NCBI GenBank assembly: GCA_011033025.1
Contig: WFMF01000008.1
Coordinates: 315,001 to 379,000, forward strand
Reading direction: 5' to 3'
DNA length: 64,000 nt
From: Beroe forskalii
Taxonomy: Eukaryota; Ctenophora; Nuda; Beroida; Beroidae
Shown: positions 16,371 to 38,802 of the stretch, piece by piece
How positions within the stretch are numbered: the stretch's first letter is position 1
Layout of the letters: each line of letters begins with the position of its first letter
Notes under the pieces: model-generated
The model's input: only the letters and a program-made list of their open reading frames with translations
Databases searched by the model: none
Told to the model about the DNA's origin: nothing
Position numbers and translations under genes: made by a program

Positions 16371-17684
16371 AACGATTTGATCAACTATTCAGTCTTCAGC
16401 TCGGCCCATCTTTTCCTCGCCCTGCGTAGCTCATCATATCGTTCATTTATGTTTATTAATATCTAAAAATCCTGATAATCGGAAAATGGTATCATTTTTT
16501 ATAAGATAAATTTTATAACCCATAAAAAACATTTTTTTACAGCAAAATTTGAATTGGAGTTAAGTGCAGAGTTAACGGTGATGACGGAACCATTACACCA
16601 TGAAAGCACGGATAACCTTCGTAACATCACTTATAGCATTATTTTTCATTTATCAACATTTCACAGAAAAACTTGGAAGACAGCTGTAACGTCCACAGTA
16701 ACGGTGATGAACATGAACACCATAAAAGCAAACCACGGATAACCTTCATTACATCACTATTCCATTATCATTTATTCATTGTATTTGATGATAAAAAGTG
16801 TCCCAACGGGACTTTGTGGTACTGTTACAGAAGCTATTCCATAGAAATAGCTGGTATGAACGCAATTGCTTTAAGTCCAGAGCTCAGAAGACGAGTAGAC
16901 AGCTTAGAATATCCACAAGACCTTTCAGGACAATGCTGAAACAAAGAGCTCCAGTCCATACTGGATAGCAGAAAGTCGGAACAAAGGTTTCTCTACAATG
17001 AGTGGGAGCGCATACCCCAAGAACGCATACAGGCAGAAGCAGCCTTCGACCGCGACAGAGGAAAGACGCCCCCAAAGAACCTTCATTACATAACTATAGC
17101 ATTAATATTTATTGTATTCAATATTTGAGGAGTAACCCAGCTGGCCTATATATTATGTAACAGTACCTAGAATTAATAGAATGATAGATTGCTAAAGGTA
17201 CATAGGGCCTGAGGAAAATAGCAGCAGTGAAATAGTTGAAGTCTGAGAATACGTCTAAGGGACTTGCGCCTGCAAGGCTGGCCAGGCCTTAAGATTTACT
17301 GATTTAGATGAAGTAGTTTTTTATAATATTCTGATCATTTATTGCCGTCCATCAATTTTCATTGTCAGTGTAATTGTCATGCATATTTACGGGCGGAATG
17401 CCTTCGTCCATTTACCAGAATTTTTCAAAATAAACTTTATAAACCATTTTTACACCATGAAAGCACGTATAACGTTTAAAAAAGTGTAAAATCACTACAG
17501 TGTAAAATCACTGGCACTGAGGACGGAGGAGACCGGAGTCTTCCTGGTGGAGGATGGCACAACGAAAACAGCGCTAAGAGGGTGGTGGGGAAAAAACGAG
17601 AGCCAAATTCCCAATGGAAGATATCAAAAGTCTCTTACAATTAATAGAAAGATTCATGAAAGCACATCAGCGCCAGACTGCAGA

Positions 17685-17726
17685 GGGGTTGAAACACACC
17701 TACTTTATCGTAGGTCGCTCTTCCCA
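17685..17726 (+). other. Conserved stem-loop, copy 1
   Basis: The inner stem ACCTAC / GTAGGT encloses the loop TTTATC. The outer stem (GGGTTGA with TCTTCCC) is partly disrupted in this copy. Three other copies lie downstream. Confidence 0.45.
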
Positions 17727-17847
17727 TGAAATATAATACTGTATTGAGTTGTTTCAATGCCACACTCGATGATTGCCGACTGGATGGATTTGCCACAATC
17801 ATGACCCAAAACGACGTTGATGGAGATGACATAGGATGATCAACCGA

Positions 17848-17889
17848 GGGGTTGAAATGCACCTAAGTAACTGTAGGTCGCTCAACCCA
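17848..17889 (+). other. Conserved stem-loop, copy 2
   Basis: The outer stem GGGTTGA / TCAACCC is intact. The inner stem has one mismatch (ACCTAA with GTAGGT) and the loop is GTAACT. Confidence 0.45.
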
Positions 17890-18346
17890 GAGCAAAAACT
17901 AAAATACTGTTAAAATGTGATGTTTCCTGGTGCAAGATGGTTTCCTGGCGTAAGATCGCACAACACACAACTTTGTTGAGAGAGAGATGGTGAGGAAGGA
18001 CTTCCAAAACCGAGAACCAAATTACCAATAGAAGACATTGAAGCTCTCCTACTATGGAGAGCTTGATAAAAGCACAACAGATCTTTTAAGTCGCCCTTCC
18101 CATAAAATAAAATACTGTTTCATAAGAATTCTTAGATATCAAACACTGGTTCAAGGGATGGACTGGATTCAATGCACAAAACTACGGTGATGTTTACATG
18201 ACACAACCATGACACCATGAAAGCACGGAGGACCGTTGTGAAATCATCATAGCATTATTATTAAGTGCGGGCGCAGAGGCGGTATGAACCGCGATAATAT
18301 GTACCGACTGGTTAAGACATGAGAAATGACGATCAACTTCCAGAGA

Positions 18347-18387
18347 GGGGTTGAAACGCACCTACGTAACTGTAGGTCGCTCAACCC
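18347..18387 (+). other. Conserved stem-loop, copy 3 (best paired)
   Basis: GGGTTGA / TCAACCC forms the outer stem and ACCTAC / GTAGGT the inner stem, with loop GTAACT and the short joiners AACGC and CGC. Confidence 0.5.
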
Positions 18388-18992
18388 AGTGCGAAAGTTC
18401 AAAGACTGTTTAAATGTGACGTTTCCTGGCGTAAGACGGCACCACACGAAACAAAAGAGGGATGGTGGGAAACGACTCTCAAAACCCTGAGTCAAACTAT
18501 GAACGACTTGGTCCTTGGAGGGTCCAGGCCCTCTGGATCCACCTTCGAATGTCTATGAGATCGTATGTCAGGTACCAAGTTCCTTATGCCGATCACCGGA
18601 ACGACCCCGATTAGGTCAGCCCAATATGTGAGTCTGTCAAGTCTAGGGCAGAGATCAAGATGAAAAAACAACATCGTTATGCTATTCCAAGGCAACCTTT
18701 CTCTAAACCCCAAAGATCACATATATTTAGCCTATAGGCTCAATATGTGATCTTGGTTTCATGGTGACCGGTGTTGCGGATTTGGGACAAGATAAAGATG
18801 CCAAAGACTGGTTTGAAAATCCCCACAAACCAGGGAGTAGAGGTAAGAGCCCTACAAAATCTAATGGGTTGACTAATAATAATCAGCAATCAAGACGCAA
18901 GATTAGCACCCTAGATTTAATGCTGTTGACAGACACAACTTCAAAGCTCTACAACCTTTGGACGAGCATCAAGACCAGAGGCAGAGTGATAT

Positions 18993-19033
18993 GGGTTGAT
19001 GCGCACCTATGATACTGTAGATCGCTCTAACCC
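18993..19033 (+). other. Conserved stem-loop, copy 4
   Basis: The outer pairing GGGTT / AACCC is kept, with insertions near the joiner. The inner stem is reduced to CTA / TAG around TGATACTG. It is the most diverged of the four copies. Confidence 0.4.
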
Positions 19034-19562
19034 GAGCAAGAACTTAAATACTGTGTTGGGGTTGTTTTATAAGAACTGAACAATGAACATGTTACCTGGT
19101 CGGCTCTATTGGTTGTATGACCAAATGACCAAAAGAAACAAAAGACCTTAAATTCGTAACACGTGAAAATATGGATGACTGAACAGTTACACAGTACACA
19201 CAAGTGACACAGTTGCGTGTCGCAGTAAGTACATCAGAACATCCTGAATTCACGATTGGAGTCATGAAGTTATTAGTGTTTAAATTTTAACAACCGCGAA
19301 ATAAATCGATATCAAAATATCTCGTGATTTGAAGTTTCTATATTATAGTTATTGAACTGGAAATATTGATATTTCAGAGTTATCAATTTGAGATAATATA
19401 TCTGCGCGGATAGCAGTGAGTAAGTGAAGTGTATTGTTGGCCAGTGAGTAACAGTGTCACGAACTAAAGGAACTAAGTGTCATTATTCTGTGTTGGACCT
19501 TGTAGTGTATACTCATACCTAACCTTGAATTATTTGTTAGATCCGGACAAGGGTGTTTCACA

Positions 19563-19942
19563 TGTTTAACATTAATTCACTAGCTCAATATACCATTTTT
19601 TGTATGTTATCAAAAAATCCAAAGCGAAAAAGACCAGATAGCAGTGCTTCAAAGTCTAAAGACGCATGCGTGGCAACAGATTTTCAAGCTACCATCACAG
19701 CAAAAGTAAAGTTTGTCTGCACAAGAATCAGAGACAGGTCAAGAATACTTCGAGTTCAGTGATCACAATGGTCACAACATTCAGGAATGCCGGTCAGTGA
19801 AGAGATTTCGCGCAAACAGACGAGGGGAAAGTACTGAGGAGGATCATTGTTTCATTAGTATTACTCAAAGCAACGGTGATAAACATGAAGACGGTATAAA
19901 CCTTGCAAAAAATCTGATGTATGCCCAATTCCAATGTGGAAC
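19563..19942 (+). CDS. Possible first exon of an unrecognised gene (frame broken)
   Basis: From the ATG at 19563 (or 19596) a frame gives a basic N-terminus, MLSKNPKRKRPDSSASKSKD, to about 19710. The neighbouring frame then runs from about 19713 with ESETGQEYFEFSDHNGHN and on to YAQFQCGTG, followed by a donor-like GTAAGC at about 19944. The two halves read like one exon with a one-base frame break. No domain is recognised. Sequence from 19970 to about 21090 shows no further gene. Confidence 0.3.
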
Positions 19943-21714
19943 AGGTAAGCCACTCAGCGAACCTCAATAGTTAATATCAATTAAAATATTTTAAAATACA
20001 GAAGATATATTCAACCTCATATCTCACAATAATCACAGGATTACGATAACAGAAGTTAAGTCGTCTTTTATTCCGGAGAATTTTCTGAATAACTACCTAT
20101 ATCAATAATTATTTAAGTCTTAAGATAGTTTGAAAGAAGCAGTAGGTGTCATTTCGACCACCTACCGCCACGAGGTGGGACATGAGCACCCGGGTCAGAA
20201 ACTTTCCAAATCAAGGGATAATAATACTCACAGCATTGTGAATCGTTTCCAGCAAGTGGCGGGCACATACTAAATTCATATCGAGCAAATTGAAAAGCAC
20301 TCAGGCCGCGTAATAAATGATTCATTTGAGGTAAGTCAAACATTAATTATATGAATAAAACGAAGTGCAAGGGCTATAAAAAGTGCGTCATAATTTTCGG
20401 AAATTTAATTTTCTTGCAGTAAGCTAAGTAGATTGTTAAATCCGGAGGTCATAGACCCAAGAGGATGGCCAGCAAACTGGGCTGCATTTATCATATTTCA
20501 TATTTAAACAAACATTTCAAGTGCCAAAGTGCCTGAATACTCCATCTGGCCACAAAAAGTGAAGATCAAGGGATCGTATTCACAACCAGCCTTATTACAG
20601 AAGTATAGCAATAAAATATTCCCAGAATTCCAACAATAACACTGCAATTTGCGAAGATTCAAAAATGTGATGAGAACACATTTTTTTCGTCTGAAACGTG
20701 ATCTAAACAATAATCTAAATAATGGAATGCTACCTTGCAGAAACTGTCCCGGCTAAGGTCTCTTGATAGAAACATTGAGTGAATGAACTTAGTCTCAACA
20801 GCAATCTGTGGTACACTTGATCCCGATGAAGACCAGCTTACAAGACCCCCCAGATGGGACATCGGAAGGAGACAGACAGTGTTATATAGCAAAGCCTTTT
20901 AAGACTTCGAATTCATCAAAAATCTGAGAAACTCGAAACAGATGATATTGGACGGGACTTTTGCATCCTGGCTAAAATCTGGATAAATTTCCCCTCAGAT
21001 GATCGGACAAGTCTATATTCTGCTAGAGAGAGTAGAATATGTTCTTGAAGTCATCGATACACTCATCTCGGTATTCTTATAGCATTTGATACATTCATTT
21101 AGGCAGCAGTATGTCTCTCTTGTTTTACACTGGGCTACATTCTTTCTTAGTTCGTATATAAATATTTTCTACACGATAATCATTATTTGCATTTAGAGAT
21201 AAGGATTTTGCAGGGAATTTCTCTTTTTTCCGTTATTATCTCCTTTAATGGTAGTCTTTTAGAAGTTTATCAATAGCAGGTTGAGTCAGGAAAGCCCGGC
21301 AGAGGACACACCCGTGATGAAGAGCAGGTCTATAGTTACTTTGGGAGAACAGCATACTTCATGAAGAAGACGAATAGTACAGAATGAGGCCCAGCCTCAG
21401 GATGAGCTTGGGCAAGATGGTGTTGAACAAGAATTACAATACCATTGAAGGAACCCCTGCCAGTTATGAAGATTACATAATAAGGGCCAAGGAGGACCTA
21501 CAAGAGAGCCTGGAATGGAGCATACCTCGAAAAAATATTTTTTTGCATGTATCCTGAGTTTGAAATCACAAAACTGCATATTTTTTGCCTAGGCAATTTC
21601 TGATTTCATATACCTACAACAAATTAAATTATTCACAGTTTCACGTCATCAAATTTCAAAATTTCCTCTCAGTAGCATCCTAAAAGCTCCCTGCATGGGT
21701 TGTTTTCTAATAAG

Positions 21715-22045
21715 TGGAGCAGGGGCCTGGGGGCGGCAGCCCCCAGAAGCCAGACGTTTTCTATAAATAAATTTGCCGCCTCAATAGGATTTTAACTCTT
21801 AATTCTGTCCTGTTAGTTGAGTCCATTGATAACATGTGAAGCAGGGGTCTGGGGGCAGCAGCCCCCAGAAGCCAGATGCTTTCTATGAATAAAATTGTCG
21901 CCTCAATAGGATTTTAACTCTTAATTCTGTCCTGTAAGTTGAGTCGATTGATAAAATGTGAAGCAGGGGTCTGGGGGCGGCAGCCCCCAGAAGCCAGACG
22001 TTTTCTATAAATAAAATTGTCGCCTCAATAGGATTATATAACTCT
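21715..22045. repeat. Tandem repeat, unit about 120 bp, about 2.7 copies
   Basis: Each unit contains GAAGCAGGGGTCTGGGGGCG, GCAGCCCCCAGAAGCCAGA, and GCCTCAATAGGATTTTAACT. It separates the 5' block of the first array copy from its coding block. Confidence 0.8.
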
Positions 22046-22443
22046 TATTTCTTTATTTCAGCGTAATTTCAGATCAAGGTACCTTAGTAAATGAAATGTA
22101 GTTACAATTTCTACAGAGATGAATATTAAATCCAGAAGATTGGGATTTGGGGGCAATTTAATATTATGCTTAAAATCGTAATTTTGTTCAACGTACAATT
22201 TCTATGAATACAATTACTATTTTTTAATACAAATGAGATTTGAAACATGCATAATTGAAACATGCATAATTTTCATTTCAGTGCTTAAAACATGCACTTT
22301 CATTTTCACAGCTACTGACAAGAAACAAGAATCCCTTGATATGGAAAATCGATAAACACAAAAAAGGCACAATTTTATTTTTAAAAATGCACATTCGTTT
22401 CTAAAATAAAGACAGAACTCAAGTAATTTTATGCATTTTTGTC

Positions 22444-23110
22444 TTGGGAGTTGGAAAAATCTCAAAACTGCATATTTTGAAAAGGATTTTGCATGTATCT
22501 AGGATGGCCAGGATTAAGTTTTTTCGTGGCATGGAATGGAGGGCACAGAGTGCCTTGGTCGCCTTGGAACGATCGGACTGTGAGGCAGTCACACTTCCGT
22601 CCTTCAGACCCGTTACAGGCGGGGTGAACGTGTTTGCAGAGTGTCCCAGGGTGGCCGACTCAACCAAAAATCATCTTGACGCAGCAGTAGATGAATTTTG
22701 TAGGACGAGGGACTCAGAGGTACTACTGAGAAGAATGGTCAGGCTAGCGGACAGATACCAAATTGTATTCGTCTGATACGTAATCTAAACAAAAATCTAT
22801 CAGGTCCGGATAGAAAAACTGAGCGAATTTAATGCATTATTCATTGGATTGTGCCACGCAATATTCTGGTGGTTATTTAGAGGCACTGCTGAGTAGAATG
22901 GTCAGGCTGGCGGACAGGTACCTGAGGGTAATGAAGAACATGCTGAAGCGAAGGAAGGAACGGGGTGAATACAAGCATGCCAGGGAGTATCGCTTCGTGG
23001 GATACGCCAATATCGCTTCCTTCAAGCAGCGATTTGATTCTGCACTTGTTAGGGTGAAGGTACTCCACGACAGTGCGATTTGCAAAAAATTATATTCGTC
23101 TGATACGTAA
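22444..23110 (+). pseudogene. Array family, coding-block copy 1 (rearranged)
   Basis: The first half (22530-22776) encodes ERSDCEAVTLPSFRPVTGGV, NVFAECPRVADST and FCRTRDSEVLLRRMVRLADR. It then breaks into a partly duplicated second half (22880-23110) with RMVRLADRYLRVMKNMLKRR and YANIASFKQRFDSALVRVKV. The junction looks like a partial internal duplication, because MVRLADRY occurs on both sides. Function unknown. Confidence 0.5.
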
Positions 23111-24351
23111 TCTAAACAAAAAATCTAAATCATGGAATGCTACCTTGCGGAAACTGCCTTGGCTCATGTCTCTTGATAGAAACACTGAGTGAATTTAATG
23201 CATTAGTCATTGCATTGTGCCACGAAATCTGGTGGTTATTTGTAAAGATGAATCTATGTCATTGTACACGAACTTCAATCTTAATTTTAAAGTTTTAAGT
23301 TCAACTGATCACCAATGAATCTAAATCAGGTACAGAAATCAATCTGTATGGATAAAAACTTTATTAAAAACCCATAACATAACATACAACAACCAACTAG
23401 ACACATACTAACAGTATGATGATACTGGTATTTGGATTAAGAACTGTTGACTGGAGTTGAGATAGATGAGAAGCTAAGATGAGAGACGCAGAGGACACGA
23501 ACGTGATAAAGAGCAGGTCTATAGTTACTTTGGGAGAACAGCATACTTCACGAGAAAGACAGAATAGTACAGAATGAGGCCCAGCCTCAGGATGAATGGG
23601 GCAAGATGGTGTTGAACAAGAATTACAATGTAACCATTGAAGGGGCAACTGCAATTGAAAGAGAGAACTGTAATAGATAATAATGAACTTAGTCTCAACA
23701 GCTATCTGTGATACACTTGATCCCGATGAAGTCCAGCGACCAGCTTACATGACCCCCCCCCCCCCCCAGATGGGACACCGCAAGGAGACAGTGCTATATC
23801 TCAAAGCTTAGGACCTCGGAGTCATCAAAAATCTGAGAAAATCGAAAACAGCTTATAATGGACGGGACTTTTGCATCCTCAGATGATCTGATAGAAACAA
23901 CAAATTGATAAGGCAGCTCAGTGTATATATTGACACCGGGAGAATTACCAGCAATATCACTCCTAAGTCCTCTTCTAGAAAACCAAACAAAAAATACGTA
24001 GATTTTAGAATTCATACTATTTAGGACTCTTTTCTAATGTTCAGTGGGCAATACAGTGGTACATACTCCTACCCCTCCTAGACGGAGTACTAGGGAAAGG
24101 AGAGCCCCTGATAGATATAGTCACCAAGTCAACCAAAACCCCCATGATGATAGAGGGTCATTAGGGCGTAGTATATCACAATACGTTATGACAATATGAC
24201 CATTTCAATGGGGTATCGCCCCTTTCAGAATCCTATTTGCACCGAAATCATTGAATTAAACTAGCTTTAGCGATAGATTGGTGTACTAGTGACTAACTAT
24301 TAGCTTATAGTCACATATCCTAGGTTACATATAAACCTATTCCCATTTCAG

Positions 24352-24859
24352 ATGGAGTACCGTGGAGTAGTCATATGCCCCAGAACCCCTGCCAGTTATG
24401 AAGATTACATAAAGGCCAAGGAAGACCTACAAGAGAGCCTGGAACGGAGGGCACAGAGTGCTTTGGAACGACCGGACAGTGACACTCCCGTCCTTCAGAC
24501 CCGTTACAGGCGGGGTGAACGTGTTTGCCGAATGCCCCAGGTTGGCTGACTCGACAAAAAATCATCTTGACGCAGCAGTAGGTGAGTTTTTTAGAACTAG
24601 GGATATAGAGGTACTACTGAGTAGAGTGGTCAGGCTGGGGGACAGATACCTGAGGGTACTGAAGAAAATGCTGAAGCGAAGGAAGGAAAGGGGTGAATAC
24701 AAGCATGCTAGGGATTATTGCTTGCTGCGATACGCCAATATCGCTTCCTTCAAGCAGCGATTTGATTCTGCACTTTTTAGGGTGAAGGTACTCCATGACA
24801 GTGCGATTTGCAAAGAATCAAAAATGAAAAAAAAGACACTGTATTCGTCTGATACGTGA
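24352..24859 (+). pseudogene. Array family, coding-block copy 2
   Basis: This copy shows the likely true exon start: an acceptor TTTCAG precedes ATG at 24352, giving MEYRGVVICPRTPASYEDYI. About 14 bases are missing near 24470 compared with other copies, which shifts the frame; the rest reads on in the next frame from 24458 (NVFAECPRLADSTKNH, VRLGDRYLRVLKKMLKRRKE). It is probably nonfunctional. Its 3' exons follow near 25000 and 25420, the first with small deletions. Confidence 0.5.
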
Positions 24860-26963
24860 TCTAAACAAAAATTAAAATCATGGAATGCTACCTTGCGGAA
24901 ACTGTCCCAGCTCAGGTCTCTAATCTTGGTAGAAACGCTGAGTGAATTTAATACATTATTCATGGCATTGTTATTCATAATGATGACTGTATCACAGTAT
25001 GGAACGCCAGGAACCCAGAAACGCCACTAACTTCCTGGTGCAACTTGGATGAAGTTCCGTTTGGGTTTAAAACCGGTGTTTATCTCCTCCCACCCAATTT
25101 CCCAAAGAGCTGTTAAAAGGAACCAGATTCATCTCATCGCTAGAGGGTGCACTAAGTAAGTCATCTATACGAATCATTAATCTCAATTAAACACTTATAG
25201 GCTATATAAGCCTACAACTAAGCACGTGTACATTCCCTTGAACTGAAGAGATTTCTCTAAATCGAAAAAAAAACCTTCGTAAAGTAATTGGGGGACATCC
25301 ACTATGCCACACCCTGACACCGATACCCAGAAGCTGAAATCGCCCAATAACTGCATATTAGATTAATCACATCATTAACACCACTGGGTCACTCACTAAC
25401 CTAACAAATTCCTTTTTCAGAGAAGATAATCAATACTGACAATCTCGAACTGTCAATTCTATGCCCAATCCTAAAGAAAGCCTCTTGGTTATTTATTGAG
25501 ATGAATCTATGTCATTGATTGTACACGAACTTGAATCTTAGTTATAAGTTCAACTCATTGGAGAAAAGTGGACTAAAGATTCCAAATCAGGTACAGAAAT
25601 CAATCTGTAAGGATTGAAACTTCATTAAAACCTCCATTACATAACTTACAACAACCAACTAGACACATAGTAACAGTATGATGATACTGGTATTAGGATT
25701 AAAGAACTGATGACTGGAGAAGTTAAGATGAGGGACGCTAAAGGTTGAGCAGTTGATAGCAGGCGCCACTTAAGGTTAATAAGATAAGGTGGAGGAAGAG
25801 CTCTTAGTAATAACCTTCCAGCCGTGGTGGCCAACAAGACCCGGCAGAGGACACACACGTGATCAAGAGGAGGTTATGATCCAGTTTTCACGAGACCAAA
25901 CCGTGTATGATGAGGCTGAGCATGAGGCCCAACCTCAGGATGAGCATGGTAAGGATGGTATAGAGCAAGAATTACAATACCATCAGGGTGCAAGGCAAGA
26001 ACCCCAGATGGCAGATTGATCAGAAAAACATCGAGCAAAAGTTCCAAGCGTAGAGAAATTGAGATGAGAAGCTGAGATAAGAAGTTGATGGGAATAGTTG
26101 AGAGGAGACTTCAGAGATGGAGCAGTTGTGAGGAGACGCTAAGCGATTCGAAGTTGGGGACAGACGCCAAATGTTAATAAGTTGCGGTGAAGGAATAGAA
26201 AGACCCTCCACTCCTCCGGCTGTGGCCGACAAGGCCCGGCAGATGATGAAGGACAGGTCTATAGTTACTTGGGGAGAACAACAGTCACGAAGTATGATGA
26301 TCTCAGACAAGATGGAGTTGAACAAGAATTACAATGTAACCATTGAAGGGGCAACTGTAATTGGGAGATAGAACCGTAATAATGAACTTAGTCTCAGCAG
26401 TAATCTGTGATACACTTGATCCCTATGAAAACCAGCTTACAAGAACCCCCCTCGATGGGACACCGAAAGGAGACAGACAGTGTTATATCTCAAAGCCTTT
26501 TAAGACTTCGAATTCATCAAAAATCTGAGAAACTCGAAACAGATGATAATGGACGGGACTTTTGCATCCTGGCAAAAATCTAGTTAAACTTCCCCTATCA
26601 GATGATATGACTAGTGTATATTCTGCTAGAAAGAGAAGAATATGTTCTTAAAGTCATCGATACACTCATCTCAGTATTCTTATAGCATTTGATACATTCA
26701 TTTAAGCAGCAGTATGTCTCTCTTGTTTTACATTCGTTTTACATTTTTCTACACGATAATTATTATTTGCATTTAGAGATAAGGATTTTGCAGGGAATTG
26801 CCATTTTACCGCTATTATCTCCTTTTATGGTAGTCTTTTAGAAGTTAATCAATAGCAGGTTTAGTCAGGAAAGCCCGGCAGAGGACACACACGTGATAAA
26901 GAGCAGGTCTATAGTTACTTTGGGAGAACAGCATACTTCACGAGGAATACAGAATAGTACAGA

Positions 26964-28183
26964 ATGAGGCCCAGCCTCAGGATGAGTTTGGGCAAGATGG
27001 TGTTGAACAAGAATTACAATACCATTGAAGGAACCCCTGCCAGTTATGAAGATTACATAAAGGCCAAGGAAGACCTACAAGAGAGCCTGGAACGGAGGGC
27101 ACAGAGTGCCTTGGTCGCCTTGGAACGATCGGAGTGGGAAGCAGTGACATTCCCGTCCTTCAGACCCGTTACAGGCGGGGTAAACGTCTTTGCCGAATGC
27201 CCAAGGTTGGCTGACTCGACAAAAAATCATCTTGACGCAGCAGTAGATGAGTTTTGTAGGACGAGGGATATAGAGGCACTGCTGAGTAGAATGGTCATGC
27301 TGGCTAATAGGTACCTGAAGGTGTTGAAGAAGATGCTGAAGCGAAGCAAGGAACGGGGTGAATACAAGCATGCCAGGGAGTATCGCTTCGTGCGATACGC
27401 CAATATCGCGTCCTTCAAGCAGCGATTTGATTCTGCACTTGTTAGGGTGAAGGTACTCCATGACAGTTCGATTTGCAAAGAATCAAAAATGAAAAAAAGA
27501 CACTGTATTCGTCTGATACGTAATCTAAACAATAATCTAAATCATGGAATGCTACCTATCGGAAACTGCCCCAGCTAAGATCTCTAATGTTGGTAGAAAC
27601 GCTGAGTGAATTTAATACATTATTCATGGCATTGTTATTCATAATGATGACTGTATCACAGTATGGAACGCCAGGAACCCAGACACGCCACTAACTTCCT
27701 GGTGCAACTTGGATGAAGTTCCGTTTGGGTTTAAACCGGTGTTTATCTCCCTCCCACTCCAATTTCCCAAAGAGCTGTTAAAAGGAACCAGATTCATCTC
27801 ATCGCTAGAGGGTGCACTAAGTAAGTCATCTATACGAATCATTAATCTCAAACAAACACTTATAGGCTATATAAGCCCATCAACTAAGCACGTGTAAATT
27901 CCCTTGAACTGAAGAGATTTCTCTAAATCGAAAAAAAACCTTCGTAAAGTAATTGGGGGACATCTACTATGCCACACCCTGACACCGATACCCAGAAGCT
28001 GAAATCGCCCAATAACTGCATATTAGATTAATCACATCATTTACACCACTGGGTCACTCACTAACCTAACAAACTTCTTTTTCAGAGAAGATAATCAATA
28101 CTGACAATCTCGAACTGTCAATTCTATGCCCAATCCTAAAGAAAGCCTCTTTGTTATTTATTGAGATGAATCAACGTCATTGA
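26964..28183 (+). CDS. Array family, most complete copy (copy 3): unrecognised three-exon gene
   Basis: The long exon is open for 204 codons from 26964: NKNYNTIEGTPASYEDYIKA, then EWEAVTFPSFRPVTGGVNVF, CPRLADSTKNHLDAAVDEFC, a basic helix YLKVLKKMLKRSKERGEYKH and YANIASFKQRFDSALVRVKV. An exon at 27662-27820 (after CACAG, before GTAAGT) gives WNARNPDTPLTSWCNLDEVP, then FGFKPVFISLPLQFPKELLK. The last exon, 28086-28183, gives KIINTDNLELSILCPILKKA and stops at TGA 28181. The joins are in phase if the first exon ends near 27518 before GTAATC. The predicted protein is about 280 residues, basic, with no signal peptide, membrane segment or domain I know. The true start is probably in an upstream exon. 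Confidence 0.4.
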
Positions 28184-29273
28184 TTGTACACGAACTTGAA
28201 TCTTAGTTATAAGTTCAACTCATTGGAGAAAAGTGGACTAATGATTTCAAATCAGGTACAGAAATCAATCTGTAAGGATTGAAACTTTATTAAAACCCCC
28301 ATTACATAACATACAACAACCAACTAGACACAAATTAACAGTATAATGATTCAAGACTTGGAGGAACAACAAAAGTTGAGATCTGAGAAGCTGACTAGCT
28401 GAGATGAGAAGTTGATAGGAATAGTTGAGAAAAGACGTCAGAGATGAGGTAGTAGAGAGGAGACGCTAAATGTTAAGTTGAGAGGAGACGCCAAATGTTG
28501 ATGAGTTGCTGTGGATGAAGAGCTCTTAATTAAAGGCTGTGGCCAAAAAGACCCGGCAGAGGACACACACGTGATGAAGAGGAGGTTATGATTCTTTCAG
28601 AGAACAGCATAGTTCCCGAGGAAGACAGAATCTACGAAATGAGGCTGAGCATGAGGCCCAACCTCAGGATGAGCATGGTAAGGATGGTATGGAGCAAGAA
28701 CTGCAAAGCTATCAAGGTGCAAGGCAAGAAGCGCAGATGGCAGATTGATCAGAACATCATCGAGCAAAAGTTCCAAGCGTAGAGAAATTGAGATGAGAAG
28801 CTGAGATAAGAAGTTGATGGGAATAGTTGAGAGGAGACTTCAGAGATGGAGAAGTTGTGAGGAGACGCTAAGCGATTCGAAGTTGGGAACAGACGCCAAA
28901 TGTTAATAAGTTGCGGTGAAGGAAGAGCTCTTAATAAAAGACACTCCACTCCTCCGGCTGTGGCCGACAAGGCCCGGCAGATGATGAAGGACAGGTCTAT
29001 AGTTACTTGGGGAGAACAACAGTCACGAGGTATGATGATCTCAGACAAGATGGAGTTGAACAGATGATATGACTAGTGTATATTCTGCTAGAAAGGGTAG
29101 GATATGTTCTTGAAGTTATCGATACACTCATCTCAGTATTCTTTATAGCTTTTGATACATTTATTTAGGCAGCAGTATGTCTCTCTTGTTTTACATTCGT
29201 TTTACATTTTTCTACACGATAATTATTATTTGCATTAAGAGATAAGGATTTTCCAGGGAATTGCTATTTTATC

Positions 29274-30188
29274 TAGGGTTTCCAATATCGGTAGCAATTT
29301 TTTAACGGCGATAATCGATAACTTTTTGTGAATTATCGGCGATACCGATAATTAACGGCGATAAATTTACATCAGTTTTAGACATCAATTTATTTCAATT
29401 TTCCTCAATCTATGAATTCGCAAACATTAATTCAGCCACTTTGCTACGTATAGTGGCTGGCGAGCTGTGCGCTAGGAACTTCTTTTCCCTCATAGCACCC
29501 TTAATGAAACTGGTCGTTGCTATCTGGTTGAAAGATAATTCGTCAACAGCTGCAAGGGCAGCATACATTTCTTCTTTGCATTTTTCTCAGCATATGATAC
29601 GATTAACTTTTGCTGAGTTTTTGGCCGCTTTGCTTTAGACTTTGCCATCTCGGCCTGTGGACGATCAATATTGTGCTTTGCTTTGAGATGATACCACAAA
29701 CTAGAATAACTGCTCATCGAAGGTGCGCCAGATTAAGACTTCGTACACTGCTTGCAGACCACTTCCTCCCCCTCTTTTGTAAAGAACTGTCATGATATGC
29801 TGTGGCTTTATATGTTAAATACAAATTGAAGTATCAATCAATACAACGGAGACTCGGAGTAGAACGTGAGTCGAAGGTCAAACGTTTAAAAGAGTTCAGA
29901 AAAATCTAAAAATTAAACTAAGCTTGGGTGTATTTTGTTTTGATAGTCATGAGACACAAGGCCGTGAAAAATGCTACAAATTGTTATTCAAACTGGCCCG
30001 TTGCTTTTGAATTAGTAAAAACCGTGAAATTAACTGGTTTTTACTTTATTTGAGTTAAATAATATGGTTTCAAAAATATTCAATTTTATCGGTTTATCGG
30101 CACAAAATTATCGCCGATAACCGATAACTGATTTTGGTCCAATTATCGCCGATAATTTTATCGGCGATATTATCGGTTGGAAACCCTA
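29274..30188 (-). mobile_element. Nonautonomous hAT-type transposon (915 bp) with BED-finger remnant
   Basis: The ends are perfect inverted repeats, TAGGGTTTCC and GGAAACCCTA, followed inside by repeated TATCGGCGATAA-type motifs in both orientations. The flanks ATTTTATC (29266-29273) and ATTTTTAC (30189-30196) are an imperfect 8-bp duplication. Two other array copies (near 26805 and 35505) show the uninterrupted site. On the minus strand, 29717-29520 encodes SSLWYHLKAKHNI, like the C-terminal half of a BED zinc finger. Frames down to about 29415 read FNQIATTSFIKGAMREKKF, like the start of a hAT transposase. The catalytic core is absent, so movement would need an autonomous relative. Confidence 0.8.
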
Positions 30189-30344
30189 ATTTTTACCGTT
30201 ATTATCTCCTCTTATTGTAGTATTATTTATCTATAGCAGGTTTAGTCAGGATAGCCCGGCAGAGGACACACCCGGGATGAAGAGCAGGTCTATAGTTACT
30301 TTGGGAGAACAGCATACTTCACGAGGAAGACAGAATAGTACAGA

Positions 30345-30808
30345 ATGAGGCCCAGCCTCAGGATGAGCTTGGGCAAGATGGTGTTGAACAAGAATTACAA
30401 TACCATTGAAGGAACCCCTGCCAGTTATGAAGATTACATAATAAGGGCCAAGGAGGACCTACAAGAAAGCCTGGAACGGAGGGCACAGAGTGCCTTGGTC
30501 GCTTGGAACAACCGGAGTGGGAAGCAGTGACACTCCAGTCCTTGAGACCCGTTACAGGCGGGGTGAACGTGTTTGCGGAGTGCCCCAGGGTGGCTGACTC
30601 CACCAAGACTCGGCTGGACTCAGCAGTCAAAGAGTTCTGTGAGACGAGGGACTCAGAGGCACTGCTGAGGAGGGTGGCCAGGCTGGGGAACAGATATTTG
30701 CGAGTGCTGAAGAAAATGCTGAAGCGGAGGAAGGAGCGGGGTGAATATCGCTTCCTGCATCCAAATCAGGTACAGAAATCAATCTTTAAGGAATTAAAAC
30801 TTTACTAA
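30345..30808 (+). pseudogene. Array family, coding-block copy 4
   Basis: The block opens NKNYNTIEGTPASYEDYI, then breaks frame near 30505 by loss of about one base (LVAWNN against LVALER). The next frame continues EWEAVTLQSLRPVTGGVNVF, RVADSTKTRLDSAVKEFC and VARLGNRYLRVLKKMLKRRK. The tail after GEYRFLHPNQ runs straight into the 3'-end module, so the C-terminal part is missing. It shares the TKTRLDSAVKEFCETRDSEA variant with copy 6, so these two form a subfamily. Confidence 0.5.
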
Positions 30809-31375
30809 AACCCCCATAACATAACATACAACAACCAACTAGACACATAGTAACAGTATGATGATACTGGTATTAGGATTAAAGAACTGATGACTGGAGA
30901 AGTTAAGATGAGGGACGCTAAAGGTTGAGCAGTTGATAGCAGGCGCCACTTAAGGTTAATAAGATGAGGTGGAGGAAGAGCTCTTAATAATAACCCTCCA
31001 GAAGAGGTGGCCGACAAGGCCCGGCAGAGGACACGTACTTAATGAAGAGGAAGTTATGATCCAGTTTTCACGAGACCAAACCGTGTATGATGACGCTGAG
31101 CATGAGGCCCAGCCTCAGGATGAGCTTGGTAAGGATGGTATGGAGCAAGAATTAATTACAAAACTATCAGGGCCAGGGTGTAAGGTTAGAACCCCAGATG
31201 GAAGATTGATCAGAACATCATCGAGTAAAAGTTCTAAGCGTAGAATACATAGACTCTAAACTCTCTATATAGAGAGTCCGGCGTATCAAAGCATAGAGTA
31301 AGCGACACTGTCCCGAGTACACAGTGTAGACACTTTAAAGAAGCAAGAAAAGTCCTTTTAAAACAGAAGCAGCAG

Positions 31376-32330
31376 TAGATGAATTCTTAGAACTAGGGAT
31401 ATAGAGGTACTACTGAGGAGAATGGTAAAGTTGGCTGATAGGTACCTGAGGTAATGAAGAAGATGCTGAAGCGAAGCAAGGAACGGGGTGAATACAAGCA
31501 TGCCAGGGAGTATCGCTTCGTGGGATACGCCAATATCGCTTCCTTCAAGCAGCGATTTGATTCTGCAATTATTAGGGTGAAGGTACTCCATGACAGTGCG
31601 ATTTGCAAAGAATCAAAAATGAAAAAAAAGACACTGTATTCGTCTGATACGTGATCTAAACAAAAATTAAAATCATGGAATGCTACCTTGCGGTAACTGT
31701 CCCGGCTCAGGTCTCTTATCTTGGTAGAAACGCTGAGTGAATTTAATACATTATTCATGGCATTGTTATTCATAATGATGACTGTATCACAGTATGGAAC
31801 GCCAGGAACCCAGACACGCCACAAACTTCCTGGTGCAACTTGGATGAAGTTCCGTTTGGGTTTAAACCGGTGTTTATCTCCCTCCCACTCCAATTTCCCA
31901 AAGAGCTGTTAAAAGGAACCAGATTCATCTCATCGCTAGAGGGTGCACTAAGTAAGTCATCTATACGAATCATTAATCTCAAACAAACACTTATAGGCTA
32001 TATAAGCCCATCAACTAAGCACGTGTATATTGCCTTGAACTGAAGAGATTTCTCTAAATCGAAAAAAAAACCTTCGTAAAGTAATTGAGTAATTGGGGGA
32101 CATCCACTATGCCACACCCTGACACCGATACCCAGAAGCTGAAATCGCCCAATAACTGCATATTAGATTAATCACATCATTAACACCACTGGGTCACTCA
32201 CTAACCTAACAAACTTCTTTTTCAGAGAAGATAATCAATACTGACAATCTCGAACTGTCAATTCTATGCCCAATCCTAAAGAAAGCCTCTTGGTTATTTA
32301 TTGAGATGAATCTATGTCATTATTTCTACC
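31376..32330 (+). pseudogene. Array family, copy 5 (5' truncated, 3' exons intact)
   Basis: The block starts abruptly inside the family sequence at about 31376 (AAVDEF region), with a one-base loss near 31452, then KKMLKRSKERGEYKHAREYR and SFKQRFDSAIIRVKV. The 3' exons follow at about 31799-31957 and 32227-32327, with the same acceptor, donor and stop arrangement as copy 3. Upstream, 31240-31370 carries a short AT-rich hairpin region (CTCTATATAGAGAG). Confidence 0.45.
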
Positions 32331-33038
32331 CGAACTTGAATCTTAGTTATACGTTCAACTCATTGGAGACAAGTGGACCAATGAGTCCAAATCAGGTACA
32401 GAAATCAATCTGTAAGGATTAAAACTTTATTAAAACCTCCATTACATAACATACAACAACCAACTAGACACAAATTAACAGTATAATGATTCAAGACTTG
32501 GAGGAACAACAAAAGTTGAGATCTGAGAAGCTGAGATGAGAAGTTGATAGGAATAGTTGAGAAGAGACGTCAGAGATGGGATAGTAGAGAGGAGACGTTA
32601 AATGTTAAGTTGAGAGGAGACAAAATAGGTTTCTGTAGCCGCGGTGGAGGAAGAGCTCTTAATAATTGACCCACCAGAAGCGGTGGCCGACAAGGCCCGG
32701 TAGAGGACACACACGTGATGAAGAGGAAGTTGTGATTCTTTCAGAGAACAGCATAGTTCACAAGGAAGACAGAATCTACGAAATGAGGCTGAGCATGAGG
32801 CCCAACCTCAGGATGAGCATGGTAAGGATGGTATAGAGCAAGAATTACAATACCATCAGGGTGTAGGGTAAGAACCCCAGATGGAAGATTGATCAGAACA
32901 TCATCGAGTAAAAGTTCTAAGCGTAGATTACATAGACTCTAAAATCTAAGTTCACTATATAGAGAGTCCGGCGTCTCAGTCAATATAGCATAGAGTTCAG
33001 GACACCAGCGAAATTATAATGATGAGCCCAGCCTCAGG

Positions 33039-33470
33039 ATGAGCTTGGGCAAGATGGTGTTGAACAAGAATTACAATACCATTGAAGAAACCCCTGCCAG
33101 TTATGAAGATTACATAAGGGCCAAGGAGGAACTAGAAGAAAGCCTGGAACGGAGGGCACAGAATGCTTTGGTCGCCTTGGAACGACCGGAGTGGGAAGCA
33201 GTGACACTCCTGTCCTTCAGACCCGTTACAGGCGGGGTAAACGTGTTTGCGGAGTGTCCCAGGTTGGCGGACTCGACCAAGACTCGGCTGGACTCAGCAG
33301 TCAAGGAGTTCTGTGAGACGAGGGACTCAGAGGCACTGCTGAGGAGGGTGGCCAGGCTGGGGAACAGATATTTGCGAGTGCTGAAGAAAATGCTGAAGCG
33401 GAGGAAGGAGCGGGGTGAATATCGCTTCCTGCATCCAAATCAGGTACAGAAATCAATCTTTATGGACTAA
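33039..33470 (+). CDS. Array family, coding-block copy 6 (open, C-terminus replaced)
   Basis: A continuous 143-codon frame reads KNYNTIEETPASYEDYIRAK, then LERRAQNALVALERPEWEAV, NVFAECPRLADSTKTRLDSA and YLRVLKKMLKRRKERGEYRF. It then joins the 3'-end module after LHPNQ, as in copy 4. It has no frame break, but it lacks the YANIASFKQRF segment and the two 3' exons. Whether it is expressed cannot be told. Confidence 0.4.
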   Translation: MSLGKMVLNKNYNTIEETPASYEDYIRAKEELEESLERRAQNALVALERPEWEAVTLLSFRPVTGGVNVFAECPRLADSTKTRLDSAVKEFCETRDSEALLRRVARLGNRYLRVLKKMLKRRKERGEYRFLHPNQVQKSIFMD

Positions 33471-33839
33471 AACTTTACTAAAACCCCCATAACATAACAT
33501 ACAACAAATCAACTAGATACATAGTAACAGTATGATGATACTGGTATTAGGATTAAAGAACTGATGACTGGAGAAGTTAAGATGAGGGACGCTAAAGGTT
33601 GAGCAGTTGATAGCAGGCGCCACTTAAGGTTAATAAGATGAGGTGAAGGAAGACCTCTCAATAATAACCCTCCAGAAGAGGTGGCCAACAAGGCCCGGCA
33701 GAGGACACACACGTCATGAAGAGGAAGTTATGATCCAGTTTTCACGAGACCAAACCGTGTATGATGAGGCTGAGCATGAGGTCCAGCCTCAGGATGAGCA
33801 TGGTAAGGATGGTATAGAGCAAGAATTCGTAAAGTAATT

Positions 33840-34062
33840 GGGGGACATCCACTATGCCACACCCTGACACCGATACCCAGAAGCTGAAATCGCCCAATAA
33901 CTGCATATTAGATTAATCACATCATTAACACCACAGGGTCACTCACTAACCTAACAAACTTCTTTTTCAGAGAAGATAATCAATACTGACAATCTCGAAC
34001 TGTCAATTCTATGCCCAATCCTAAAGAAAGCCTCTTGGTTATTTATTGAGATGAATCTATGT
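33840..34062 (+). pseudogene. Array family, isolated final exon
   Basis: After a junction near 33829, where a block (b) copy is fused to intron sequence (AAAGTAATTGGGGGACATC), the acceptor TTTTTCAG precedes KIINTDNLELSILCPILKKA and a stop, exactly as in the complete copies. The preceding coding exons are absent. Confidence 0.5.
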
Positions 34063-35673
34063 CATTGATTGTACACGAACTTGAATCTTAGTTATAAGTT
34101 CAACTCATTGGAGAAAAGTGGACTAATGATTCCAAATCAGGTACAGAAATTAATCTGTAAGGATTAAAACTTTATTTAAACCTTCATTACATAACATACA
34201 ACAACCAACTAGACACAAATTAACAGTATAATGATTCAAGACTTGGAGGAACAACAAAAGTTGAGATCTGAGAAGTTGATAGGAATAGTTGAGAAGAGAC
34301 GTCATAGATGGGGTAGTAGAGAGGAGACGCTACCTAAATGTTAAGTTGAGAGGAGACGAAATACTGAGATAGGTTTCTGTAGCCGCGGTGTAGGAAGAGC
34401 TCTTAACAATAAACCCTCCAGCCGTGGTGGCCGACAAGGCTCGGCAGAGGACACGTACTTGATGAAGAGGAGGTTATGATTCTTTCAGAGACCAGCAATC
34501 ACGAGGAAGAGAGAACCGGTTATGATGAGGCTGAGCATGAGGCCCAACCTCAGGATGAGCATGGTAAGGATGGTATGGAGCAAGAATTACAATACTATCA
34601 GGGTGTAAGGTAAGAACCCCACATGGCAGATTGATCAGAACATCATCGAGTAAAAGTTCCAAACGTAGAGAAATTGAGATGAGAAGCTGAGATAAGAAGT
34701 TGATGGGAATAGTTGAGAGGAGACTTCAGAGATGGAGCAGTTGTGAGGAGACGCTAAGCGATTCGAAGTTGGGAACAGAAGCCAAATGTTAATTAGTTGC
34801 GGTGAAGGAAGAGCTCTTAATAAAAGACCCTCCACTCCTCCGGCTGTGGCCGACAAGGCCCGGCAGAAGATGAAGGACAGGTCTATAGTTCTAGTTACCC
34901 GCCCTACTCCAAATCACAGCGCTCGCTACAAGGGCATTAAGCGACCTAGGAGACCAGCAGTCACGAGGAAGATAGAACTGTTGTATGATCTCAGACAAGA
35001 TGGAGTTGAACAAGAATTACAATGTAACCATTGAAGGGGCAACTGTAATTGGGAGATAGAACCGTAATAATGAACTTAGTCTCAGCAGTAATCTGTGGTA
35101 CACTTTAGATCCGGATGAAAACCAGCTTACAAGACCCCCGAGATGGGACACCGAAAGGAGACAGACAATTTTATACCTCAAAACAAAAGACTTCGAAGTC
35201 ATCAAAAATCTGAGGAGCATGAAAACAGCTAACAATGGACGAATCTTTTGCATCCTGGCAAAAATCTGGATTAACTTCCCCTCAGATGATCTGACTAGTG
35301 TATATTCTGCTAGAAAGGGTCAGATATGTTCTTGAAGTTATCGATACACTAATCTCAGTATTCGTATAGCTTTTGATAAATTCATCTAGGCAGCAGTATG
35401 TCTCCCTTGTTTTACACTCGGCTGCATTCTTTCTTAGTTCGTATATATATTTTCTACACGATAATCATTATTTGCATTTAGAGATAAGGATTTTCCAGGG
35501 AATTGCTATTTTTACCGTTATTATCTCCTATTATGGTAGTCTTTTAGAAGTTTATCTATAGCAGGTTTAGTCAGGAGAGCCCGGCAGAGGACACACCCGT
35601 GATAAAGAGCAGGTCTATACCTAGTTACTTTGGGAGAACAGCATACTTCACGAGGAAGACAGAATAGTACAGA

Positions 35674-36210
35674 ATGAGGCCCAGCCTCAGGATGAGCTTG
35701 GGCAAGATGGTGTTGAACAAGAATTACAATACCATTGAAGGAACCCCTGCCAGTTATGATGAATACATAAGGGCCAAGGAGGACCTACAAGAGAGCCTGA
35801 AATGGAGGGCACAGAGTGCCTTGGTCGCTTGGAACGCCCGGAGTGAGAGGCAGTGACACTCCCGTCCTTCAGACCCGTTACAGGCGGGGTAAACGTCTTC
35901 GCCGAATGCCCCAGGTTGGCGGACTCGACAAAAAATCATCTTGACGCAGCAGTAGATGAGTTTTGTAGAACGAGGGACATAGAGGTACTACTAAGTAGAA
36001 TGGTCAGGCTGGGGACAGATACCTGAAGGTGTCGAAGAAGATGCTGAAGCGAAGGAAGCAACGGGGTGAATACAAGCATGCCAGGGAGTATTGCTTCGTG
36101 CGATACACCAATATCGCTTCCTTCAAGCAGCGATTTGATTCTACACTTGTTAGGGTGAAGGTACTCCATGACAGTGTGATTTGCAAAGAATCAAAAATTT
36201 AAAAAAAACA
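35674..36210 (+). pseudogene. Array family, coding-block copy 7
   Basis: The block begins KNYNTIEGTPASYDEYIRAK and breaks frame near 35835 and again near 36010 (a G missing from RLGDRY). It then continues KQRFDSTLVRVKVLHDS on to 36200. The 3' exons are absent; a 3'-end module follows at about 36445. Confidence 0.5.
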
Positions 36211-36689
36211 AAAAACAAATTATATTTGTCTGATAAGTAATCTAAACAAAAATCTAAATCATGGAATGCTACCTTGCGGGAAATGCCCCGGCTCATGTCT
36301 CTTGGTAAAAACGCTGAGTGAATTTAATGCATTATTATTTGCATTGTGCCACAAAATATTCTGGTGGCTATTTATCAAGATGAATCTATGTCATTGATTG
36401 TACACGAACTTGAATATTTATTTTAAGATTACCAATGAATCAAATCAGGTACAGAAATCAATCGTATGGATTAAAACTTTAAAACATAACATACAACAAC
36501 CAACTAGATGCACAGTAACAGTATGATTATTCAGTATTTGGATAAGGAACTGTTGACTGGAGAAGTTAAGATAGATGAGAAGCTAAGATGAGAGACGCTA
36601 AAGGTTGAGCAGTTGATAGCAGACGCAACTCAAGGTTAATAAGATGAGGTGGAGGAAGAGCTTTAACAAAAGACATGAAGTAGTGGTGT

Positions 36690-37880
36690 GCCCCCGTACC
36701 CCAGCCAGCAATGAGGACTACATCAAAGCCAAGGAGGATCTGGAGGAGCGCCTGGGGAGGAGGGCACAATGTGCCCTGGTTACGCTGGAGTTTCCGGAGT
36801 GATTTGATTGGAGTGGGAAGCAGTTACGCTTCCCACATTCAGACCCGTTACAGGCAGGGTAAACGTGTTTGCGGAGTGTCCCAGGTTGGCGGACTCAACA
36901 AAAAATCATCTTGACGCAGCAGTAGTAGATGATTTTTGTAGAACTAGGGATATAGAGCCTAGAGGCCCTGCTGAGTAGGGTGGCCAGGCTGGGGGACAGG
37001 TACCTGAGGGTAATGAAGAACATGCTGAAGCGAAGGAACGGGGTCAATACAAGCATGCCAGGGAGTATCGCTTCGTGGGATACGCATATACTGCTTCCTT
37101 CAAGCAGCGATTTGATTCTACACTTGTTAGGGTGAAGGTACTCCACGACAGTGCGACTTGCAAAGAATCAAAAATGAAAAAAAGACACTGTATTCGTCTG
37201 ATACGTGATCTATATAATAATCTAAATCATGGAATGCTATCTATCGGAAACTGCCCCAGCTAAGGTCTCTAATGTTGGTAGAAACGCTGAGTGAATTTAA
37301 TACATTATTCATGGCATTGTTATTCATAATGATGACTATATCACAGTATGGAACGCCAGGAACACAGACACGCCACTAACTTCCTGGTGCAACTTGGATG
37401 AAGTTCCGTTTGGGTTTAAACCGGTGTTTATCTCCCTCCCACTCCAATTTCCCAAAGAGCTGTTAAAAGGAACCAGATTCATCTCATCGCTAGAGGGTGC
37501 ACTAAGCAAGTCATCTATACGAATCATTAATCTCAAACAAACACTTATAGGCTATATAAGGCTATCAACTATTAGTTGATTCAACTAAGCACGTGTACAT
37601 TCCCTTGAACTGAAGAGATTTCTCTAAATCGAAAAAGTAATTGGGGGACATCCACTATGCCACACCCTGACACCGATACCCAGAAGCTGAAATCGCCCAA
37701 TAACTGCATATTAGATTAATCACATCATTAACACCACTGGGTCACTCACTAACCTAACAAATTCCTTTTTCAGAGAAGATAATCAATACGGACAATCTCG
37801 AACTGTCAATTCTATGCCCAATCCTAAAGAAAGCCTCTTGGTTATTTATTGAGATGAATCCATGTCATTGATTGTACACG
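36690..37880 (+). pseudogene. Array family, copy 8, with 3' exons
   Basis: This copy has the alternative exon start (VVVCPRTPASNEDYIKAKED) and the most different N-terminal block (EERLGRRAQCALVTLEFPE). Small insertions near 36800 and 36950 and a 9-12 base loss near 37035 break it. The C-terminal part (FKQRFDSTLVRVKVLHDSAT) and both 3' exons (about 37350-37506 and 37776-37876) are readable. Confidence 0.5.
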
Positions 37881-38704
37881 AACTTGAATCTTAGTTATAA
37901 GTTCAACTCATTGGAGAAAAGTGGACTAATGATTCAAAATCAGGTACAGAAATCAATCTGAAAGGATTAAAACTTCATTAAAACCTCCATTACATAACAT
38001 ACAACAACCAACTAGACACAAATTAACAGTATAATAGTATAATGATTCAAGGACTTGGAGGAACAACAAAAGTTGAGACCTGAGAAGCTGACTAGCTGAG
38101 ATGAGAAGTTGATAGGAATAGTTGAGAAGAGACGTCATAGATGGGGTAGTAGAGAGGAGACGCTAAATGTTAAGTTGAGAGGAGACAAAATAGGTTTCTG
38201 TAGCCGCGGTGGAGGAAGAGCTCTTAATAATAACCCTCCAGCCGTGGTGGCCGACAAGGCCCGGCAGAGGACACACACGTAATCAAGAGGAAGTTATGAT
38301 CCTTCCAGAGACCAGCATTCACGAGGAAGAGAGAACCGGTTATGATGAGGCTGAGCATGAGGCCCAACCTCAGGATGAGCAATGAGCATGGTAAGGATGG
38401 TATAGAGCAAGAATTAATTACAATACTATCAGGGTGCTAGATAAGAACCCCAGATGGCTAGATTGATCAGAACATCATCGAGTAAAAGTTCCATAGCGTA
38501 GAATACATAGACTCTAAATTCTCTATTGATATAGAGAGTACGGCGTCTCAGCCAATATAGCATAGAGTAAGGGACGCCAGCAAAATAATGGTGAGCCGTT
38601 GCCCAGTCCCAAGCACACTTACTTCCATGTAAACAGAGGATTGTCGGAACCTAAAAAAGGAGTGAAGGAAAATCTCCTTTTATTTAAAGAACAAAGTGAA
38701 AAAA

Positions 38705-38802
38705 AAGCACGAACAGGGCAAGGTGAGCACGAACAGGGCAAGGTGAGCACGAACAGGGCAAGGTGAGCACGAACAGGGCAAGGTGAGCACGAACAGGGCA
38801 AG
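38705..38802. repeat. 20-bp tandem repeat, about five units
   Basis: GAACAGGGCAAGGTGAGCAC is repeated head to tail about five times with no differences between complete units. This indicates a recent expansion just beyond the gene array. Confidence 0.95.

Follow-up and report, generated by a model that had tools for sequence, protein, structure and literature searches.

Repeated coding block in a Beroe forskalii contig as a very probable array of decayed ORF3 fragments from a Ty3/gypsy-type retrotransposon

We analysed a stretch of 64,000 nucleotides from the genome of the ctenophore Beroe forskalii (C913:315,001-379,000, hereafter the window); searches of the species' own genome covered 216 Mb in 1,134 contigs. 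The mitochondrial COX1 of this genome is highly divergent; when AGR is read as Arg and TGA as Trp, arginine falls on conserved sites, in keeping with a ctenophore. A preliminary description, made from the sequence alone, had assigned a coding block that recurs between 21 and 38.5 kb to a host multi-exon gene family. The alignments show that the block is homologous to the third open reading frame (ORF3) of an intact long terminal repeat (LTR) retrotransposon on contig C691, and that it is present in the window as nine fragments (22,528-37,152) plus a 70-bp scrap at 21,451, as follows.

21,451-21,520, plus strand: 5' scrap of ORF3, 70 bp, with PASYEDYI; too short for the ratio of nonsynonymous to synonymous substitution rates (dN/dS)
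22,528-22,758, plus strand: short, open middle fragment of ORF3 (alignment to C691 ORF3)
22,877-23,074, plus strand: short, open 3' fragment of ORF3 (alignment to C691 ORF3)
24,039-24,799, plus strand: pol end, acceptor-like ...TTTCAG/ATG and frameshifted ORF3 (ORF3 from 24,352); 79.5% identity over 790 columns to C691 L029:5441-6220
27,031-27,467, plus strand: open ORF3 copy, C-terminus lost; no indel or stop relative to C691 ORF3, 79.7% nucleotide identity; inside the open frame 26,958-27,578
30,412-30,747, plus strand: truncated ORF3 copy with a -1 frameshift; C691-like type in codons 72-112
31,366-31,597, plus strand: 3' part of ORF3 with two -1 frameshifts (alignment to C691 ORF3)
33,088-33,421, plus strand: open ORF3 copy ending after GEYR; C691-like type in codons 72-112
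35,741-36,175, plus strand: ORF3 copy interrupted by two -1 frameshifts and by stops (alignment to C691 ORF3)
36,696-37,152, plus strand: ORF3 copy with indels and one stop; first part of a third, diverged type (dS 2.0 to the 27.0-kb copy in codons 8-72)

Frameshifts were found in the fragments at 24.4, 30.4, 31.4, 35.7 and 36.7 kb, and those at 35.7 and 36.7 kb carry stops as well. The 24.4-kb copy has two indels within ORF3, and its acceptor-like site is common to C691. The span from TPAS to LHD is free of indels and stops only at 27,031-27,467, which lies in a 206-amino-acid open frame with an in-frame ATG at 26,964. None of the nine fragments is full length, and none reaches the conserved C-terminus of ORF3. 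The motifs quoted in the preliminary description are present in these copies, and its claim that about eight copies with few stops recur holds for the recurrence of the block but not for eight intact copies, since five of the nine are frameshifted and all are incomplete. Overall, the array looks like the product of ordinary decay.

The element on C691 lies on the minus strand and is about 11.3 kb long by its coordinates. The two LTRs, at L037:2547-4189 and L029:2926-4567, share 99.7% identity over 1,644 bp, both have TG...CA ends, and a 4-bp target duplication, ATAG, lies outside both outer ends. A frame of 497 amino acids was assigned to gag by its position and by a zinc-knuckle-like motif seen by eye, and no gag match was found in the element with Pfam. 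The pol frame (1,643 amino acids without a stop) matched the Pfam families for protease (PF13975, 5e-8), reverse transcriptase (RVT_1, 1.6e-18), RNase H (2e-22) and Integrase_H2C2 (5e-13), while the rve match (2e-7) was just below its cut-off. The order protease, reverse transcriptase, RNase H, integrase identifies the copy, as far as domain order can, as a Ty3/gypsy-type (Metaviridae) LTR element, this order arguing against copia only. Behind pol lie ORF3 (179 amino acids), ORF4 (129 amino acids, coiled coil) and then the 3' LTR. The element is structurally complete and apparently young. With a 611-bp part of the LTR as query, 21 own-genome matches were obtained, namely the C691 pair, two on C641 at 91-92% identity and otherwise partial ones, which indicates that the element family is small.

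When the C691 element was compared with the array (blastn, E 1e-6), matches were obtained at the pol end and ORF3 only; gag, ORF4 and the LTR had no match in the array. The array thus fails as a complete retrotransposon, as LTRs, gag and most of pol were not found with this search. A 97-bp match at 54.5 kb of the window comes from sequence outside the C691 element. Own-genome searches with the 27.0-kb frame gave 30 matches, and two diverged relatives used as queries gave 21 and 13. The ORF3 block stands directly behind a pol-type frame on C691, C247 and C1112, and on C436 behind a 168-amino-acid frame with the same pol end. These results make it almost certain that the repeated block consists of pieces of ORF3 from a Ty3/gypsy-type LTR retrotransposon. 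The open frames, the repeated blocks and an overall dN/dS below 1 would also suit a host multi-exon gene family, yet a pol remnant is attached to the array, ORF3 lies behind pol in the intact element, and truncation or frameshifts affect the copies, which are joined to local repeat DNA; outside the window the block matched only repeats elsewhere in the genome, an outcome that had been named beforehand as speaking against such a family. A supposed conserved 3' exon, the frame at 27,616-27,897, likewise lacks a codon-position signal. We therefore consider a host gene family highly improbable.

Both this supposed exon and the sequence upstream of the block at 27.0 kb are local modules of the array, as follows.

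26,845-27,030, plus strand: local module immediately 5' of the ORF3 block and fused to it; repeat family D6, with relatives near 21.3, 23.5, 30.2 and 35.6 kb
27,616-27,897, plus strand: local repeat without codon-position constraint, read earlier as a 3' exon; copies from about 24.95, 31.75 and 37.30 kb

The four copies of the 27,616-27,897 frame are 96-99% identical, so its openness comes close to one observation rather than four; one copy has a stop and two have indels, and the variable sites fall 4/5/4 on the three codon positions. Among the matches listed in the own-genome searches, neither 26,875-27,030 nor 27,616-27,897 had a match outside C913, and the array modules in general matched C913 only, save the repeat at about 26.61-26.87 kb and an 82-bp stretch that is also found on C628. 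The former (26,612-26,874, about 263 bp) is a dispersed repeat with relatives of 71-87% identity on 13 other contigs. The acidic motif of the flanking modules gave 17 matches in a protein search of the genome, all of those listed being on C913. A second ORF3 cluster with three further pieces lies about 60 kb upstream of the window (C913:253.8-256.4 kb). Parts of 14,626-20,290 in the window are 70-93% identical to C913:249-254 kb, which adjoins the upstream cluster; together with the array this region is best read as a local segmental duplication.

The array is mosaic. Repeat families D1 and D7 in the window have seven members each, and pairwise comparison of the units gives mostly 82-100% identity in their flanks. 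Between the 27.0-kb copy and those at 30.4 and 33.1 kb the flanks are 88-100% identical and the ORF3 block only 70-80%. In codons 72-112 the 30.4- and 33.1-kb copies are at dS 0.36-0.41 from C691, whereas the 27.0-kb copy is at dS 0.9-1.0 from C691 and from both of them; in codons 8-72 these three copies are mutually within dS 0.24, and the 36.7-kb copy is at dS 2.0 from the 27.0-kb copy. This segment-wise pattern shows that at least two, and probably three, ORF3 types were joined in the array by exchange. The mixed module order and the exchange between copies noted in the preliminary description are thus borne out by the repeat families and by the identities of flanks and blocks. One unit carries an insertion of about 0.9 kb, seen as an alignment gap (29,271-30,190), with the ends TAGGGTTTCCAA and TTGGAAACCCTA by eye; it is probably a DNA transposon. 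Directly 3' of the array, at 38,709-38,800, lies a short tandem repeat with a 20-base unit, GAGCACGAACAGGGCAAGGT (by eye).

We compared nine pieces from the window and three from the upstream cluster with the ORF3 of C691. In 11 of these 12 comparisons dN/dS was 0.11-0.37, and in the twelfth dS was saturated, which agrees with the earlier view that the block is a genuinely coding, unrecognised protein sequence. The openness of the frames in the window is explained by descent of the block from a real ORF, and low dN/dS between types is expected since the types diverged inside working elements; the low dN/dS of the array is therefore at least partly inherited from its source types. Pairs of the same type weigh against a simply dead array. 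For these, dN/dS over the whole block was 0.30 (27.0 vs 24.4 kb), 0.39 (27.0 vs 35.7 kb) and 0.36 (30.4 vs 33.1 kb), and the pair 24.4 vs 35.7 kb fell likewise in the range 0.30-0.39; these pairs include frameshifted copies, with or without stops. Several pairs were also significant in individual segments, among them 27.0 vs 24.4 kb (p=0.004) and 27.0 vs 35.7 kb (p=0.006) in codons 72-112. Low dN/dS within a type would be explicable by some constraint within the array, or by conversion from several source types. Five window pairs with the 22.9-kb piece gave dN/dS of 0.53-0.92. No excess of dS was seen in codons 112-147 for any of eight array pairs (p 0.11-0.79), a comparison of low power with one to three synonymous differences in each pair, which lends weak support to neutrality in this segment. 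Between copies the picture is mixed, with dN/dS below 1 in most pairs.

It is conceivable that the 27.0-kb copy, and perhaps also the 33.1-kb copy, was domesticated: the host would then make a truncated ORF3 protein whose new N-terminus derives from the local module, and this protein might interfere with the element. The open 206-amino-acid frame with its ATG and a fusion common to the 33.1-kb copy are compatible with this, as is dS exceeding dN between the two copies (p=0.003 in codons 8-72, 8e-5 in codons 72-112). However, the dS of 1.0 in codons 72-112 reflects a type switch that is older than the array, because the two copies are 98% identical in their upstream flank; the conserved C-terminus is missing from both, and the frame of the fusion peptide differs from the acidic-motif frame of the other modules. 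Domestication is therefore improbable.

In the elements, ORF3 starts at CAG/ATG in all three cases examined (C691, C247 and C1112), and the ATG of ORF4 stands 4-7 bases behind an AG in all four (C691, C211, C247 and C1112). The similarity of ORF3 extends to the stop in C691 and C1112 (FRNIELTI-stop and FRDMERTL-stop). C691 ORF3 is 33% identical to that of C247 and 28% to that of C1112; the C247 copy, in which ORF3 stops earlier and ORF4 is also interrupted by a stop, is decayed. ORF3 and ORF4 were also considered as two exons of one protein, and this was dropped in favour of two ORFs because of the similarity up to the ORF3 stop and the position of the ORF4 ATG behind AG in four of four cases. 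Each apparently has its own acceptor and ATG. This arrangement bears on whether ORF3 is a derived envelope gene with a present or past job in cell entry. In envelope-bearing gypsy elements env lies between pol and the 3' LTR behind an acceptor site, and ORF3 shares this position, with an acceptor-like site before its ATG. In contrast, no membrane segment was found in ORF3 or ORF4 of the C691 copy, where the best 19-residue Kyte-Doolittle means were 0.67 and 0.58; as judged on that copy, an envelope origin is very unlikely.

Structure prediction with AlphaFold for a window copy (eight window sequences) gave four long helices, with a mean predicted local distance difference test (pLDDT) score of 73 and a predicted template modelling (pTM) score of 0.62. 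In Foldseek searches with the ORF3 model, the 121 matches in PDB and the 116 in BFVD were all weak, with none below E 0.001, and nothing convincing was found for ORF3 in Pfam, PHROGs or a PDB sequence search; the earlier statement that no known domain is recognised thus stands for Pfam and PDB, where no match exceeded the cut-off. A scan of IMG/VR with alignment A1 gave 98 pattern matches and no relative. The best PDB profile match of ORF3, DBL6 (E 0.0015, 50 residues of a 61-residue chain), and a PHROG match of ORF4 (E 2e-4, a family of unknown function) were both taken for coincidences of helical sequence. A comparison of ORF3 with gag gave a best E of 0.98, and the idea that ORF3 arose by copying of gag was rejected.

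A 300-amino-acid pol query gave 93 own-genome matches, with ten rows at 64% identity or more, two of these partial. Seven of the ten were inspected behind pol: C691, C247 and C1112, which were known by their ORF3, together with one C814 copy out of two and three C481 copies out of four; the remaining C814 and C481 copies and the one on C381 were left out. ORF3 was not found in the 2.0-2.5 kb behind the C814 and the three C481 pols (100 N in one). All four fall within this pol clade, some members of which thus do without ORF3, a point that counts against the explanation given below. Behind the three C481 pol matches, pieces resembling the LTR of C691 appear from about 0.7-0.8 kb onwards, leaving little room for ORF3. 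The C814 and C481 pols are 70-81% identical to that of C691 and the C247 and C1112 pols 64-65%; on these identities, which are not a tree, loss of ORF3 in the C814 and C481 copies seems likelier than its original absence.

Taken together, it is very likely that 21-38.5 kb is a local array of decayed, mosaic ORF3 fragments around retrotransposon 3' ends. In the proposed course of events, 3' ends of Ty3/gypsy-type elements (pol end and ORF3) would have inserted in this region, unequal exchange and gene conversion would have grown a local array around them, and truncated, partly frameshifted, mosaic ORF3 fragments would have ended up joined to repeat DNA specific to this locus. In live elements, ORF3 (basic and all-helical by prediction) and ORF4 (coiled coil) may be expressed from separately spliced subgenomic mRNAs. 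We suggest tentatively that both are non-envelope accessory proteins, most likely binding the element's RNA and regulating its export or use, as does CERV of the Caenorhabditis elegans element Cer1. Two points count against this function: the conserved basic helix that suggests RNA binding has no supporting fold match in PDB or BFVD, and the splicing is deduced from sequence only.

Two side observations concern other parts of the window. A frame at 495-845 matches the MCM AAA-lid (E 4.8e-7) and is part of an MCM helicase gene. Adjoining frames at 48,060-49,672, with LDL-receptor class A repeats and a rhodopsin-type seven-transmembrane match, probably belong to one gene for an LDL-receptor-like G-protein-coupled receptor (LDLR-GPCR).

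The supposed unknown host gene family is thus replaced by a gypsy-type element with two non-envelope accessory ORFs, and it is this pair in the intact element, more than the decayed array, that is of interest. The array illustrates that element fragments amplified in one place can mimic a gene family, including low dN/dS that is at least partly inherited from the source elements. To our knowledge, the function of an accessory gene is known in few cases among animal LTR retrotransposons, and an unrelated ORF3/ORF4 pair would help to show how often retroelements invent regulatory proteins. More speculatively, and with less confidence than the accessory role itself, this ctenophore Ty3-type lineage could be a complex retroelement with a pair of non-envelope regulatory genes, each expressed by its own splicing, of which ORF3 would encode a helical protein that binds RNA and ORF4 its coiled-coil partner. 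In it, Rev-like control of genomic RNA would have evolved independently of complex retroviruses and of Cer1. If true, this would place Rev-like control by a complex retroelement near the base of animals.

In the titles and abstract openings searched, a coverage that excludes most subscription journals, accessory ORFs were not described for any gypsy element of a ctenophore. In the parts of the bdelloid rotifer study used here (PMC5408684), LTR elements carry an extra ORF3 in some branches of a clade and lack it in others, and these ORF3s are envelope-like or encode a GDSL esterase or a DEDDy nuclease. The ORF3 described here is similarly an extra ORF present in part of a clade, and unlike those it has no Pfam match above cut-off. 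The Drosophila MDG1 group, as far as the consulted sections of its description go (PMC11952523), has sORF1, with a potential helix-turn-helix and location in a subnuclear compartment, and sORF2, a transmembrane fusogen-like protein; both lie upstream of gag in most elements, with no evidence of splicing. These too are two small accessory ORFs in a gypsy-type element, whereas ORF3 and ORF4 lie behind pol with an acceptor-like AG and, in C691, have no membrane segment. The nearest analogue, likened by position and kind, appears to be CERV of Cer1, a Ty3/gypsy element of C. elegans; in the portion of the report cited (PMC10309623), CERV is made from a spliced mRNA and is needed for export of the genomic RNA. 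Like CERV, ORF3 and ORF4 of C691 lie between pol and the 3' LTR. According to the same portion of that report, CERV is a single protein of 517 amino acids from a five-exon mRNA whose first three exons are in the gag frame (PMC10309623), whereas the C691 element has two short ORFs of 179 and 129 amino acids, each apparently with its own acceptor and ATG.

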